Shown here one piece after another: positions 46,738-52,960 of a stretch of 64,000 nucleotides of DNA; position 1 is the stretch's first letter; each line of letters begins with the position of its first letter. A program made the position numbers and the translations under genes. Under the pieces are notes generated by a model. That model searched no databases and had not been told where the DNA came from. It saw nothing but the letters and a program-made list of their open reading frames with translations. The stretch is from Aureimonas sp. OT7. Its GTDB lineage: Bacteria > Pseudomonadota > Alphaproteobacteria > Rhizobiales > Rhizobiaceae. Location of the stretch: the NCBI RefSeq assembly GCF_014844055.1, contig NZ_CP062167.1, positions 3,199,501 through 3,263,500 on the forward strand, written 5' to 3'.

Positions 46738-48921
46738 ATGAGCGCGCATTCCCGTGTCCGCCAGCTAGCCCTTCAAACCGCGCTTGCCGGCCTGCTGGCC
46801 ACCGGGGCGGCGGCCCAGTCGGCCATGCCCTCCGGCGTGCCGATGCCGACGCTGCGCTCGGCGCCGTCAGCGCCGGTGCCTTCTGCGCCGGTGGATGCGA
46901 GCCGTTTCGGCACCCCGGCGCCACGGCCGGCGCCAAGCTTTCCGGGAACGGCGCCGAAAGCGCCGGCTGCTTCCGCGCAGGCCGCCGCCGCCTTCACCTC
47001 GTCCATTGCGGCGACATCGCGAAGCGCATCCGTGCGCCCGGCCAGCGGCAGCCTCAAGGAGGGGCTGGATGCGACGCACAACAACATGGCGCGCGCCCGC
47101 GCCATCCGTGCGGGGATGGCGCCGAACTCGCTCGACCACAAGATCATGACATGGGCGATCGCGCTGAAGGGCGGCGGTGACGTGCCGGCAGCCGATATCG
47201 CCGCCGCGATGCAGGAATTGTCTGGCTGGCCGGGCATGGAGACCCTGCGGCAGAATTCGGAACGGGCGCTCTACCGTGAGAACCGACCCGCCCGCGATAT
47301 ACTGGCCGCCTTCGGCAGCAGCACGCCGCAGACACCCGAAGGAACGATGGCCCTTGCACGGGCGAATATCGAGACCGGGCAGGCCGGGCGCGCGAAACAA
47401 CTGATCCAGACCCTGTGGCGCACCGAGACGCTGGATCGCGGCACCGAGCAAAAGATTCTCGGTACGTTCGGGACGCTGCTGACCAAGGCAGACCACAAGC
47501 ACCGCATGGACATGCTGCTCTATGCCAACCGGGTCAATGACGCGCAACGCGTGGCCGGGCTTGCAAACTCGGAAACCCTGTTCCGCGCGCGCGCGGCGTC
47601 CATCCGGGGCGAGGCGAATGCGGACCGCCTGCTGGCGGCAGTGCCGCAAAACCAGCACTCCGACCCCAGCTACATGTTCACCCTCGCCGAGAACCTGCGC
47701 AAGCAGAACAAGGTGCGCGAGGCGGCGCGCATCATGATGAACGCGCCGCGCGATCCGGTGCAGCTTGTCGATCCGGACAGCTGGTGGAACGAGCAGCGAA
47801 TCATTTCCCGCATGTTGCTGGAGCAAGGCGCCCGAAAGGAAGCCTATCAGTTGGCGGCGCGCCACTCCGCGCAGGGCGTCGTCGCACGCGTCGAGGCGGA
47901 CTTCCATGCCGGGTGGTACGCATTGCGGGCTCTCGGCGACCCGGCAACCGCCAGTCGCCATTTCGCCCGGGTGGCCGAGGTTTCGAGCCGCCCCCTCACC
48001 CAGTCCCGCGCCTATTACTGGCTCGGCCGCGCCGCCGAAGCGGGCGGCCCCGGCAACGCCCGCAATTACTATGCCCAGGCGGCCCGCTTCGGCGCCACCT
48101 ATTACGGCCAGCTCGCGGCGGCCAAGCTTGGCCGCTCGCCGGGCGACATCGCCTATCCGAGGCCAAGCAACGCCGACCGCCAGCGCTTCCAGAACCGCGA
48201 TGCGGTGCGCGCCCTCGTCCGCATGCACGAGATCGGCTCAGACTGGCGCGCGGCGCAATTGTACCGTTCTCTGGCGGACGAGCTGGACAGTCCGGGCGAG
48301 CTTGCAATGCTCGCATCGCTTGCCGAAAGACGCGGCGATCACTCGATGTCGCTCGATGTCGGCAAGCGGGCCTATTCTCGCGGCATCGATGCTCCGGCGC
48401 TGGCCTTCCCCGTGGGTGTGATTCCCGACAGCGCGCGCATCTCGGCCGCTGGAAAGGCGCTCGCCTACGCCATCGCCCGTCAGGAAAGCGCCTTCAACCC
48501 CGGTGCCCGCTCGCCGGCCGGCGCGCTGGGGCTGCTGCAGCTCATGCCGGCCACGGCCCGTTCGCTGGCACAGCAGAACGGGATGTCCTATTCCGAAGCG
48601 CGGCTTTTGAGCGACGTGTCCTACAATGCCCAGTTGGGCTCGCAGTATCTTGGCCAGCAGATCGATGCCTTCAATGGCTCCTACGTCCTGACATTTGCCG
48701 CGTACAATGCGGGGCCACGGCGGGCACGCGAGTGGATCCAGCGCTTCGGCGATCCGCGCGGCCAGCCCATCGACGAAGTGGTGGACTGGGTGGAAATGAT
48801 TCCCTTCACTGAAACCCGCAACTACGTGCAGCGCGTGATGGAGAATTATCAGGTCTACAAGATCAGGCTCGGCGCCGGCTTCTCCATCGAAAGCGACCTG
48901 ACCAACGGACGCCGGGGCTAG
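46738..48921 (+). CDS. slt: Soluble lytic murein transglycosylase
   Basis: A 727-residue periplasmic enzyme. A signal peptide (about residues 1-26, to GAAAQS) is followed by a Pro/Ala/Ser-rich linker to about 100, a long helical superhelix of the Slt70 U-domain type, and a C-terminal GH23 domain. The catalytic Glu583 lies in AIARQESAFNP, then PAGALGLLQLMPATARSLA and AYNAGPRRAREW. It cuts the glycan strand of peptidoglycan to 1,6-anhydro products. Its last codons (TNGRRG, stop 48919-48921) form the start of the first copy of the tandem array that follows. Family length and domains are normal. Confidence 0.93.
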   Translation: MSAHSRVRQLALQTALAGLLATGAAAQSAMPSGVPMPTLRSAPSAPVPSAPVDASRFGTPAPRPAPSFPGTAPKAPAASAQAAAAFTSSIAATSRSASVRPASGSLKEGLDATHNNMARARAIRAGMAPNSLDHKIMTWAIALKGGGDVPAADIAAAMQELSGWPGMETLRQNSERALYRENRPARDILAAFGSSTPQTPEGTMALARANIETGQAGRAKQLIQTLWRTETLDRGTEQKILGTFGTLLTKADHKHRMDMLLYANRVNDAQRVAGLANSETLFRARAASIRGEANADRLLAAVPQNQHSDPSYMFTLAENLRKQNKVREAARIMMNAPRDPVQLVDPDSWWNEQRIISRMLLEQGARKEAYQLAARHSAQGVVARVEADFHAGWYALRALGDPATASRHFARVAEVSSRPLTQSRAYYWLGRAAEAGGPGNARNYYAQAARFGATYYGQLAAAKLGRSPGDIAYPRPSNADRQRFQNRDAVRALVRMHEIGSDWRAAQLYRSLADELDSPGELAMLASLAERRGDHSMSLDVGKRAYSRGIDAPALAFPVGVIPDSARISAAGKALAYAIARQESAFNPGARSPAGALGLLQLMPATARSLAQQNGMSYSEARLLSDVSYNAQLGSQYLGQQIDAFNGSYVLTFAAYNAGPRRAREWIQRFGDPRGQPIDEVVDWVEMIPFTETRNYVQRVMENYQVYKIRLGAGFSIESDLTNGRRG

Positions 48922-49722
48922 TTCCCCGCCCTGAACCGAGAAGACCCAAAGCCCCTTCCACCGCTTGGCGGGAGGGGCTTTTTGTATGGCGGTCGCCCTT
49001 CCGCCGCCCGACGCGGCCTCACCGACGGACGCCGGCTCCCGTTCCCCGCCCTGAACCGAGACGACCCAAAGCCCCTTCCACCGCTTGGCCGAAGGGGCTT
49101 TTTGTATGGCGGTCGCCTTCCGCCGCCAGGCGCGACCTCACCGACGGACGCCGGGGCTTAGTTCCCGGTACTGGACCCGAGACGACCCAAAGCCCCTTCC
49201 ACCGCTTGGCCGAAGGGGCTTTTTGTATAGCGGTCGCCTTCCGCCGCCCGACGCGACCTCACCGACCGACGCCGGCGCTCGTTCCCCGCCCTGAACCGAG
49301 ACGACCAAAAGCCCGTTCCACCGCTTGGCCGAAGGGGCTTTTTGTATGGCGGTAGCCCTTCCGCCGCCCGACGCGGCCTCACCGACGGACGCTGGGGCTT
49401 AGTTCCCGGTACTGGACCCGAGAAGACCCAAAGCCCCTTCCACCGCTTGGCCGAAGGGGCTTTTTGTATAGCGGTCGCCTTCCGCCGCCCGACGCGGCCT
49501 CACCGACCGACGCCGGCGCTCGTTCCCCGCCCTGAACCGAGACGACCCAAAGCCCCTTCTACCACTTGGCCGAAGGGCTTTTTGTACGGCAGTGGCCCTT
49601 CCGCCGCCCGACACGGCCTCGCCAACGGACGCCGGCCCCCGTTCTCCGCCCCGACACGGGAAGACGAAAAGCCCCTTCCGCCGTTGGCTGGGGGCCTTTT
49701 GTATGGCGGTTGCCCTGCCAGG
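48901..49722 (+). repeat. Seven tandem 120-bp copies of the slt 3' end and terminator
   Basis: Units begin near 48901, 49021, 49141, 49261, 49381, 49501 and 49621. Unit 1 starts with the last seven codons of slt and includes its terminator; later units repeat that coding end (ACGGACGCC and so on) outside any gene, then the terminator, then a GC-rich stretch (CGGTCGCC...CCGCCGCCCGACGCGGCCTC). Units 1-5 are close to identical; 6 and 7 are more diverged and 7 is cut short near 49722. Units 3 and 5 share one variant of the middle (TAGTTCCCGGTACTGGACCC), units 4 and 6 another, so 240-bp pairs were duplicated too. No gene is credible in the region; open frames persist only because 120 is a multiple of three. 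Confidence 0.93.
48948..48985 (+). terminator. Rho-independent terminator of slt, repeated in the array
   Basis: AAAGCCCCT pairs with AGGGGCTTT across a 16-base loop and is followed by a T run. Equivalent hairpins recur at about 49068-49103, 49189-49224 and 49430-49465. The copy near 49308 has a C-to-G change that weakens the stem, and the copies near 49549 and 49668 are shortened. Confidence 0.85.
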
Positions 49723-49749
49723 GGCTGACGGTCACCGGCTGCCGGACGC

Positions 49750-49779
49750 AAAAAGGGGCCCGGCAAGGCCGGACCCCTT
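49750..49779 (-). terminator. Rho-independent terminator after the first porin gene
   Basis: On the minus strand AAGGGGTCCGGC pairs with GCCGGGCCCCTT (one G-T pair) over a three-base loop and runs into TTTTT. It lies 23 bases past the porin stop and faces the tandem array. Confidence 0.88.
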
Positions 49780-49802
49780 CACTTCGGATCGAGTGAACTC
49801 GA

Positions 49803-51044
49803 TTAGAAGTTGCGCTGGAAGCGGAGGAAGCCAGAGGTCTGGTCGTCGGAGGCAACGCCACCGAAGTCGATGTTCTGGTACTTCACTTCGGCCAGGACGT
49901 TCATGTTGGCGGTCAGGTCGTAACCGATGTCGCCGACGACGGCCCAGTAGTCAGCCGACGAGAACACGTAGCCGCCCGGAACTTCCGGAGCAACGAAGGC
50001 GTAGTCGAAGGTCTGGCCGTAGCGGCCCGAAACGCCGGCCGTTACGCGGTTGAACTTCTGCGAGTAACCAGCGCCGACCGACCATTCGAGGACGAGCGGG
50101 AAGGCACCCGGGGTCGGGTTCTCAAGCGTCGCGTTGCTCGGCAGGATGCCGCCGGCCGAGGTGAAGCCGCTGATGACGGCGTAGCTCGTCGGGTCGGAAG
50201 CCCAGTGACCGTCGACCTTGAGGGTCGAGTCGGCAACCAGGAGATCCTGCAGCGTCAGGCCGGCCTTGATGGCGAAGGCGTCGTTGCTGCCGTCGACATC
50301 GCGCTCGGGAATGAACGGGAAGAAGGCCGGCAGGTCGAGGTCGTCGATGCCGAACAGGTCGTTGACGTCTTCAGCGTTGAAGGTCTCGTCGTATACGGCG
50401 GAGAGGAACACGCCACCCCAGGCACCCGTGTAGGAGAGCTTGCCGTGGACGTCCGGAGCGATGTCACCCGTGCCGTCGTCTTCCAGGCCCAGCGTGGCAG
50501 CGAAGCCGCCCGTCGCGAAGGTGTAGGAGATCTGGTTGGTGTTGAAGTCGCCGATCGGGAGATCGTCGTCGGTCGGCAGACCGTCTTCGATGCCGCCGAT
50601 GTCCGAGGACCACAGCGTGTCGCGGTAACCAGCGAGGAAGCCGCCGAGCTGCAGGTAGCCCTGCTCCATCGCGAACTCGTCTTCCGGGTTTGCACCGTTG
50701 TTCTGAGCCTGCAGACGGAAGTAGGCGCGCAGGGTGCCGAGTTCGGTCTCTTCGCGAACGTCGAGGTTCAGACGGGCACGAACCGAGGACAGAGCCTGGT
50801 AGTCGTCACCCTCGGAGTTGCCAGCCGGGCTACCCGCGACGTTGTACTGGAAACGCAAGTAACCGCTGGTCTTGATGCAGGTTTCCGTTCCCGGGATGTA
50901 GTAGAAGCCCGTGCCGTAAACGTCGCAAACGCGGACGTATTCGACCGGCTCGGGCTCGACCATGACAATGGCGTCGGCAGCGCGCGCGCCGGATACTGCG
51001 ACGAGAGCCGCAGCGGAGCCGAGAAGAAGGCTCTTGATGTTCAT
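49803..51044 (-). CDS. Outer-membrane porin (Omp2-like)
   Basis: A 413-residue alphaproteobacterial porin. The signal peptide is MNIKSLLLGSAAALVAVSGARA, cut before ADAIV. The mature protein has VEYVRVCDVYGTGFYYIPGT and ETCIKTSGYLRFQYN, the two-Cys hallmark of the Omp2/RopA-type family, then a beta-barrel of alternating strands and acidic loops, and ends with phenylalanine (FLRFQRNF) as outer-membrane proteins do. Paralogous to the next porin. Start at 51044, with GAGG-TCAGGAA upstream; frames open further upstream lie in the leader. Confidence 0.93.
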   Translation of the reverse strand: MNIKSLLLGSAAALVAVSGARAADAIVMVEPEPVEYVRVCDVYGTGFYYIPGTETCIKTSGYLRFQYNVAGSPAGNSEGDDYQALSSVRARLNLDVREETELGTLRAYFRLQAQNNGANPEDEFAMEQGYLQLGGFLAGYRDTLWSSDIGGIEDGLPTDDDLPIGDFNTNQISYTFATGGFAATLGLEDDGTGDIAPDVHGKLSYTGAWGGVFLSAVYDETFNAEDVNDLFGIDDLDLPAFFPFIPERDVDGSNDAFAIKAGLTLQDLLVADSTLKVDGHWASDPTSYAVISGFTSAGGILPSNATLENPTPGAFPLVLEWSVGAGYSQKFNRVTAGVSGRYGQTFDYAFVAPEVPGGYVFSSADYWAVVGDIGYDLTANMNVLAEVKYQNIDFGGVASDDQTSGFLRFQRNF

Positions 51045-51424
51045 TTCCTGACCTCCAGTCAAGTTCACAGGTATAGGGAGGGCCTTGATACGAAGGACAG
51101 CCTTCCCTGCCCCTTCCCCTTGAAAGAGGCAGGTTCGTCCCCCCGCCGCTTTCGAATCCCAACATAGCTACCACTGGTTGGGACGCAATCTGTAAAACCT
51201 CTAGTTGTCCCTGCTGACGCCGGTTGGTCACACCTCTGTTGCCATTTCGCCACGATTGCGTTTACCGCCTGTTAATAATTCGGGCAGTTTGCGGGCGGGA
51301 TGAATTCGAAACGTCCAAATTCGGCGCAAGACTGGATAAGGCAAGCAAGCAAAAAGGCCCCCGGAGCGATCCGGAGGCCTTTCGATGATTGCAGAAGGTA
51401 CGGGGCCCGGAGGCCCCGCCCGAC
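51045..51424 (-). promoter_or_regulatory. Leader and promoter region of the first porin, with the second porin's terminator
   Basis: 380 bases without a gene. On the minus strand the last 100 bases before the start (51045-51150) are the mRNA leader shared with the other porin: hairpin GAAGG-CTGT-CCTTC (51092-51105) and stem CCTGCC/GGCAGG (51106-51133). 51150-51345 is AT-richer and should hold the promoter. 51351-51382 is the terminator of the second porin. Confidence 0.65.
51351..51382 (-). terminator. Rho-independent terminator after the second porin gene
   Basis: On the minus strand AAAGGCCTCCGGA pairs with TCCGGGGGCCTTT (one G-T pair), with loop TCGC between, and the T run continues for two bases. 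Confidence 0.87.
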
Positions 51425-52603
51425 TTAGAAGTTGCGCTGCAGACGGACGAAGCCGCCGAGCCTGTCTTCGGTGATCTTGGCAGAAGCCGGCGTGCCCTGG
51501 GCGGGCTGCTCGATGTTCTGGTAAGTCACCTCGGTCAGGAGGTTCAGGTTCTTGGTGATGTCGTAGCCGACGTTACCAACCAGGTCGAGGACGCCGAGCG
51601 CCTTGCCATCCGGGATGACGACGCTGTCGAACGTCTCGCCGTAGCGACCTGCGACTGCAACGCCGAGCTTGCCGAACTGTACGCTGTAGCCAGCACCGGC
51701 CGTCCACTGCAGCGGAATGCCTTCACGCGAGAGGTGATCAGTGTCGAGCGTGGCGAAGTCCGTCTTTTCCGGAGCGTAGTGACCCTCGACCTTGAATACC
51801 GAGTCGGCCAGCAGCAGGTCGTCGACCCAGGCGCCGAGCTTGACGGCATAGCCTTCCTCGGAGTCCGACGGAGCCAGGCCCGGAGCATAATAGACATCGG
51901 CGTCGGAGTCGTAGACGCCGGCGACGTATGCACCGCCCCAGCCTGCGCTGTAGGCGATCTTGGCGACGACGTCGAAGCTTTCGTCGGTGTCGGCGTCACG
52001 ATCTTCCTTCGAGAAGACCGGGTTTTCCAGGCTCAGCGTGCCGGTCAGGCCGTCCATCGCATAGGTGTAGGAAACCAGGTTCGCCGTACGATCGCCGACC
52101 GCCAGGTCCGAATCGGTGAGAAGGCCGTCTTCGGCTCCGCCGATATCCGACGTCCACAGCGAGTCGTACAGGCCGGCAGTCAGACCGCCGAGCTGCAGGT
52201 AGCCGAACTTCATCTGGTAGGTGGCGCCGTCGGAACCATTCGCGTTCTGGGCCTGGAGGCGGACGTAACCGCGCAGCGTGCCGAGCTCGGTCTCTTCGCG
52301 GACGTCGAAGTTCAGGCGGGCACGAACCTTGGACAGGCCCTCATAGCCGCCGCCCGTCTCGACGCCGCCCGTCTCGATCGTGGCGTTCTGGTTGAAATCA
52401 TACTGGTAGCGGACATAGCCGCCGACCTTCAAGCAGGTCTCGGTGCCCGGGATGTAGAAGAACCCCTTGCCGTAGACGTCGCAGACGCGGACATATTCAG
52501 CCGGCTCGGGCTCGGCGTTGACGATGGCGTCGGCCGCATGGGCGGCACCGGATACCGCGACCAGGGCCGCGGCGGAGCCGAGAAGTAGGCTCTTGATGTT
52601 CAT
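51425..52603 (-). CDS. Outer-membrane porin (Omp2-like), second copy
   Basis: A 392-residue porin, paralogous to the one at 49803-51044. The signal peptide is almost the same (MNIKSLLLGSAAALVAVSGA, cut after HA). EYVRVCDVYGKGFFYIPGT, ETCLKVGGYVRYQYDF and the ending GFVRLQRNF match the family. The middle strands differ more than the ends, as expected of surface loops. The start is 52603, with the same GAGG-TCAGGAA leader; a frame open to 52810 covers only the leader. The pair resembles the Omp2a/Omp2b duplication of Brucella in layout, though orthology is not implied. Confidence 0.93.
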   Translation of the reverse strand: MNIKSLLLGSAAALVAVSGAAHAADAIVNAEPEPAEYVRVCDVYGKGFFYIPGTETCLKVGGYVRYQYDFNQNATIETGGVETGGGYEGLSKVRARLNFDVREETELGTLRGYVRLQAQNANGSDGATYQMKFGYLQLGGLTAGLYDSLWTSDIGGAEDGLLTDSDLAVGDRTANLVSYTYAMDGLTGTLSLENPVFSKEDRDADTDESFDVVAKIAYSAGWGGAYVAGVYDSDADVYYAPGLAPSDSEEGYAVKLGAWVDDLLLADSVFKVEGHYAPEKTDFATLDTDHLSREGIPLQWTAGAGYSVQFGKLGVAVAGRYGETFDSVVIPDGKALGVLDLVGNVGYDITKNLNLLTEVTYQNIEQPAQGTPASAKITEDRLGGFVRLQRNF

Positions 52604-52960
52604 TTCCTGACCTCCAGTCAAGTTTACAGGTTGGGTTGGGCCTTGTTCTGAAGGACAGCCTTCCCTGCCCCATCCCCCTGAAAGTGGCAGGGTCATCCCG
52701 CCGTCTTTCATCCTGCAAACTATTACCTGCAGATCATTCCAACAACGCACTTGGACAGCGTATCGGAACAGCATCGTTCGCTTGTTGCGCAGCAAGCACG
52801 AAACAGCCACCTGTGGTGTCTCCAGGTGTTGCTAAACAATTAAATTGAAACGCAAGGTTTGGTCAGCAGCGAAGCGTCGGCCAGCCGCAGGCTAAACTGA
52901 CGGTTTATTGTTATCGATTTATTCCACCGACGATTGTGCCCTTGCCGGGCGCACCCGCTC
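52604..52960 (-). promoter_or_regulatory. Leader and promoter region of the second porin
   Basis: 357 bases without a gene. 52604-52700 repeats the leader of the first porin with hairpin GAAGG-CTGT-CCTTC (52650-52663) and stem CCCTGCC/GGCAGGG (52663-52692). 52700-52960 is AT-richer, with CACCTG/CAGGTG arms near 52810-52830 and a run of A and T near 52838-52850; promoter elements are probably here. No terminator of the upstream ATPase gene is evident. Confidence 0.6.

Follow-up and report, generated by a model that had tools for sequence, protein, structure and literature searches.

The 3′ end of slt and its repeat units

The window analysed here, a 64,000-nucleotide stretch of the Aureimonas sp. 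OT7 chromosome, contains a soluble lytic transglycosylase gene (slt) convergent with a porin gene; dapA-like and smpB genes lie upstream of slt, both on the minus strand (PF00701 and PF01668). TRF reports a tandem array 3′ of slt at 48893–49714 (period 119, 6.9 copies, 85% matches, score 1154), with a higher-order period of 241 bp besides. An earlier note on this DNA had described a seven-copy array at the slt end, and both the TRF copy number and the hairpin/T-tract anchors (n = 7, one per unit, ~120 bp apart) confirm it. The features are arranged as follows, with hairpin energies predicted by folding.

46738–48921, plus strand: slt, soluble lytic transglycosylase, 727 amino acids (open reading frame; PF01464, E 6.3e-26)
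48901–49020, plus strand: unit 1, the real slt end with stop codon and terminator; hairpin 48948–48981, −25.1 kcal/mol
49021–49139, plus strand: unit 2 (type A); hairpin −20.6 kcal/mol
49140–49260, plus strand: unit 3 (type B); hairpin −20.6 kcal/mol; 97% identity with unit 5
49261–49380, plus strand: unit 4 (type A); hairpin −17.5 kcal/mol, one pair broken
49381–49501, plus strand: unit 5 (type B); hairpin −20.6 kcal/mol
49502–49620, plus strand: unit 6 (type A); hairpin −13.6 kcal/mol, stem base lost
49621–49739, plus strand: unit 7, the most diverged; hairpin −17.6 kcal/mol; final ~25 bases past the TRF end, into the 3′ flank
49745–49785, minus strand: terminator of the porin gene; 49741–49790 folds at −28.6 kcal/mol with a T-tract, and is also found in the stock scan
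49803–51068, minus strand: porin gene, convergent with slt (PF02530, E 2.6e-58)

A tandem porin pair spans 49803–52810, its members adjacent, both on the minus strand, both matching PF02530 and with very similar protein starts. No sigma-70-type promoter was found in 48700–49900, and no Rfam family reached its gathering threshold within the window.

The source of the repeat is the last codons of slt. Unit 1 holds six sense codons, the stop, a spacer and the hairpin; it is the real gene end, as had been claimed, although the count of seven codons given for it does not hold. The units do run head to tail, but their supposed exact phase fails because successive starts lie 117–122 bp apart. These spacings shift the reading frame, which rules out a coding repeat. 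Per-unit alignment recovers seven diverged units (62–97% identical): units 1–6 share 80–97% pairwise identity and unit 7 matches the others at 62–71%, values that take in the ~25 bases beyond the TRF end. For these identities unit 5 was cut one base shorter, and unit 6 one base earlier, than the coordinates listed above. When the slt end is aligned to the unit 1/2 junction, the match continues ~27 bases upstream of the unit 1 start listed above, with identity lower there; the shuffle z-score (7.2) is for the well-matched core and this extension together, and the shuffles used for all slt-end/unit alignments preserve base composition only, not dinucleotides.

The array is real and locally unusual. 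Because the units diverge by 3–38%, it is very unlikely that one unit was falsely repeated, and the chromosome of OT7, a human skin isolate, was assembled from PacBio reads (SRX9198886) at 267.7x (20-kb library, read N50 15,790 bp; PMC7936629). An artefact, which the earlier note had offered as its own refutation, is contradicted by this divergence and by the long-read assembly. Two units are also present in the closest named relative; the array is known from one genome of this species, the collections searched having yielded no second strain, and we regard an assembly error as scarcely credible. PMC7936629 gives strain ON-56566 an ANIb of 97.46% to OT7.

Rarity of the array and its counterparts in related genomes

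In 464 kb of the OT7 genome (20 spaced 20-kb stretches plus the window), TRF found no other array with a period of at least 30 and at least 4 copies; the other arrays of such period in the sample have 2.0–2.8 copies only. Elsewhere in the genome, a 289-bp tandem duplication (L095:17780–18370) has 2.0 copies with 97% match. Of 32 candidate sites scored in the 4.18-Mb genome, one matches the array sequence at E ≤ 0.001, which rules out a dispersed element. REP/BIME-like is the name given to dispersed palindromic repeats, and the genome-scattered copies that define them are not seen for the OT7 array. A plasmid collection searched in distant mode held no match, and a family-wide DNA search, scoring up to 3 candidates per genome, returned weak 25–49 bp matches in 6 of 150 other genomes (E 9.1e-5 to 9.8e-4).

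We also scanned 900 bases past the slt stop in relatives (score ≥ 50, period ≥ 30). With 80 loci fetched, 77 had a reachable stop (L035, L057 and L065 were dropped), and no array among these 77 reached three copies; L023 had 2.2 and L049 had 1.9. Old pairs like that of A. altamirensis DSM 21988 would be missed elsewhere, because the scan does not detect that diverged pair. Titles and abstract openings of open-licence literature on terminator minisatellites, VNTR terminators and tandem or bidirectional terminators revealed no comparable array.

Unit number differs among three related genomes: 7 in OT7, 2 in A. altamirensis DSM 21988 (L001) and 1 in Aureimonas altamirensis A31 (L002), whose slt genes are 91.4% and 89.3% identical in DNA to that of OT7. 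This comparison bears out the earlier suggestion that copy number may change. DSM 21988 has a diverged second slt end and terminator 178 bp after the first (z 29 for the whole unit, z 11 for the slt part alone). No second slt-end copy was found in the 78 bases tested downstream in A31 (z 0.9), nor any second slt end in A. frigidaquae (L003; z 0.0) or A. fodinaquatilis (L004; z −1.5); in A. frigidaquae a porin end is likewise convergent with slt. A DNA search for the array in 21 genomes of the genus, OT7 included, matched OT7 itself, G001 in two places and G002 in one, with no match in the other 18. By contig position G001 and G002 are apparently the DSM 21988 and A31 genomes, so these matches are not independent of the comparison above.

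The OT7 array and the DSM 21988 pair probably arose by separate duplications, since the OT7 unit junction shows no clear match to that of DSM 21988 (z 2.4), and a tree of 10 short unit sequences sets the OT7 units apart from those of DSM 21988 and A31 (support 99) and pairs the two DSM 21988 units, weakly (74). Concerted evolution could give the same picture of junctions and tree.

Two further repeats were observed at these loci. The A31 porin region contains a perfect 144-bp two-copy tandem duplication (L002:7419–7705, 100% match in TRF), which could reflect either an in-frame repeat within a porin or a mistake in assembly. In A. fodinaquatilis two or three hairpin-like repeats of ~57 bp follow slt (L004:6181–6350); they were seen by eye with TRF silent, and are unrelated in sequence to the OT7 array.

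Terminator anatomy and the question of selection

On the slt strand, 7/7 units are predicted to form a GC-rich hairpin (−25.1 to −13.6 kcal/mol) with a T-tract behind it, and at least four T stand 3′ of the hairpin in each. The unit 1 hairpin has a 12-pair outer stem and then TTTTT. Units 2, 3 and 5 retain an 11-pair outer stem, an inner stem pair is absent from units 2–6, stem damage without compensation is present in units 4 and 6, and the stem of unit 7 differs from the others; in the hairpin alignment, the 3′ arm of one relative is shifted. The hairpin claim rests on these folds because the stock terminator scan of 48700–49900, which accepts loops up to 8 only, gave just two sites, one in unit 7 and the other the porin terminator, where shuffles averaged 1.5 (sd 1.7). 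Minus-strand folds are at least as stable as plus-strand folds in 6/7 units (−17.9 to −27.6 kcal/mol; unit 7 is weaker, −15.7). Units 4 and 7 have minus-strand tails of four T, the other five (1, 2, 3, 5 and 6) of three T before a G.

Predicted stability falls from unit 1 (−25.1 kcal/mol) to as low as −13.6 kcal/mol. Neutral simulation, in which hairpins were mutated at each unit's own outside rate (n = 3000), gave equal or greater stability in 26, 4, 53, 4, 75 and 24% of runs for units 2 to 7, respectively. The stability of four of the six extra units (2, 4, 6 and 7) is thus what neutral drift would produce; units 3 and 5, more stable than 96% of simulations, are marginal. These two count as about one marginal result, because each is nearly a copy of the other and a single clustered block of differences inflates their outside rate. 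Across units 2–6, variable columns make up 2/24 of stem and T-tract against 26/86 of the rest (Fisher p 0.034; loop columns, 2 and 3 of 12 variable, were excluded from the Fisher test). Adding unit 1 gives 3/24 against 27/86 (p 0.075), and with type A units only the contrast is gone (2/24 against 12/86, p 0.73). Similarity among the hairpins could also be maintained by gene conversion from unit to unit. The earlier proposal of an amplification frozen by selection is therefore not supported, given the stem damage in units 4 and 6, the inner pair gone from units 2–6 and the neutral-like behaviour of 4/6 extra units, although stem columns vary somewhat less in one comparison; selection may or may not act on the extra hairpins.

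Were the extra terminators kept because they stop slt read-through from becoming antisense RNA into the porin genes, the convergent arrangement of slt and porins and the T-tract on the slt strand after 7/7 hairpins would be expected, as would the somewhat lower variability of stem columns in units 2–6 (p 0.034). The main effect of such insulation would be to protect the porins from slt read-through, since the stronger T-tracts face slt transcripts. Extra hairpins might raise termination: according to PMC8355165, a tandem hairpin pair after M. smegmatis gyrA terminates better than single ones. Unit 1, however, has a strong predicted fold by itself, A31 has one unit, and A. frigidaquae shows no second slt end, its porin end being likewise convergent; stem damage stands unrepaired in units 4 and 6, and 4/6 extra units fit the neutral simulation. 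What speaks for insulation is thus the anatomy and one weak conservation contrast, and we consider selected insulation unlikely. An elaborated form, in which the number of units would set the slt antisense leak into the porins and the slt 3′ end would be a recurrent site of amplification in Aureimonas, is decidedly improbable. The minus-strand folds, at least as good in 6/7 units, might instead suggest a zone of bidirectional termination or collision between the convergent genes, with hairpins active on both strands; but the minus-strand tails (three T before a G in all units except 4 and 7, which have four T) argue against it, as does the porin gene's own terminator, which minus-strand transcripts meet before the array, and we hold this to be highly improbable.

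A gene end as a probable minisatellite

The array most likely reflects passive amplification of DNA and not a new device. We think it probable that the array is an intergenic minisatellite derived from a gene end, with units 2–7 passive and possibly terminating residual read-through. The order of units 2–6 is A B A B A, with units 3 and 5 sharing 97% identity and units 2, 4 and 6 87–92% mutually, and the longest exact repeat in the array is 72 bp at an offset of 241; order and repeat together fit unequal recombination that added two units at a late stage. Duplication and amplification of a gene end together with its terminator are supported by the A B A B A order, the 241-bp periodicity and the 7, 2 and 1 unit counts. 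A short stretch with the last slt codons and the terminator would have been tandemly duplicated, and the second copy, released from coding constraint, would have drifted. Later amplification would have proceeded by unequal recombination or replication slippage, with at least one two-unit (241-bp) step; recombination as the mechanism of growth we infer from the repeat pattern. Only unit 1 would be required as the slt 3′ end, with units 2–7 as passive, apparently near-neutral copies that may still stop residual read-through in the slt direction.

Bacterial intergenic minisatellites and VNTR loci consist of head-to-tail imperfect units, change by multi-unit steps and differ in copy number between relatives. 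The OT7 array is alike in its imperfect tandem units of tens to hundreds of base pairs (TRF), its multi-unit step and its difference in copy number between related genomes (7, 2 and 1), and differs in that its unit contains a gene stop region and an intrinsic terminator. It also resembles a partial tandem gene duplication, a slt 3′ fragment being duplicated beside the gene, except that the copies hold terminal codons only and are non-coding. Tandem terminators are exemplified by rrnB T1–T2. The terminator clusters of PMC8355165 share with OT7 several hairpins after one stop codon; the hairpins there are short and separated by less than 15 bases, whereas those of OT7 have 11–12 pairs, lie ~120 bp apart and arose from each other by duplication.

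Should the units have a function, the number of terminators would act as a dial, readily changed by mutation, that sets read-through between convergent genes. As passive copies, too, they would make the locus a record of how a gene end turns into a minisatellite: coding constrains unit 1, the spare copies are left to drift, and the arrays at this place differ between two related species.
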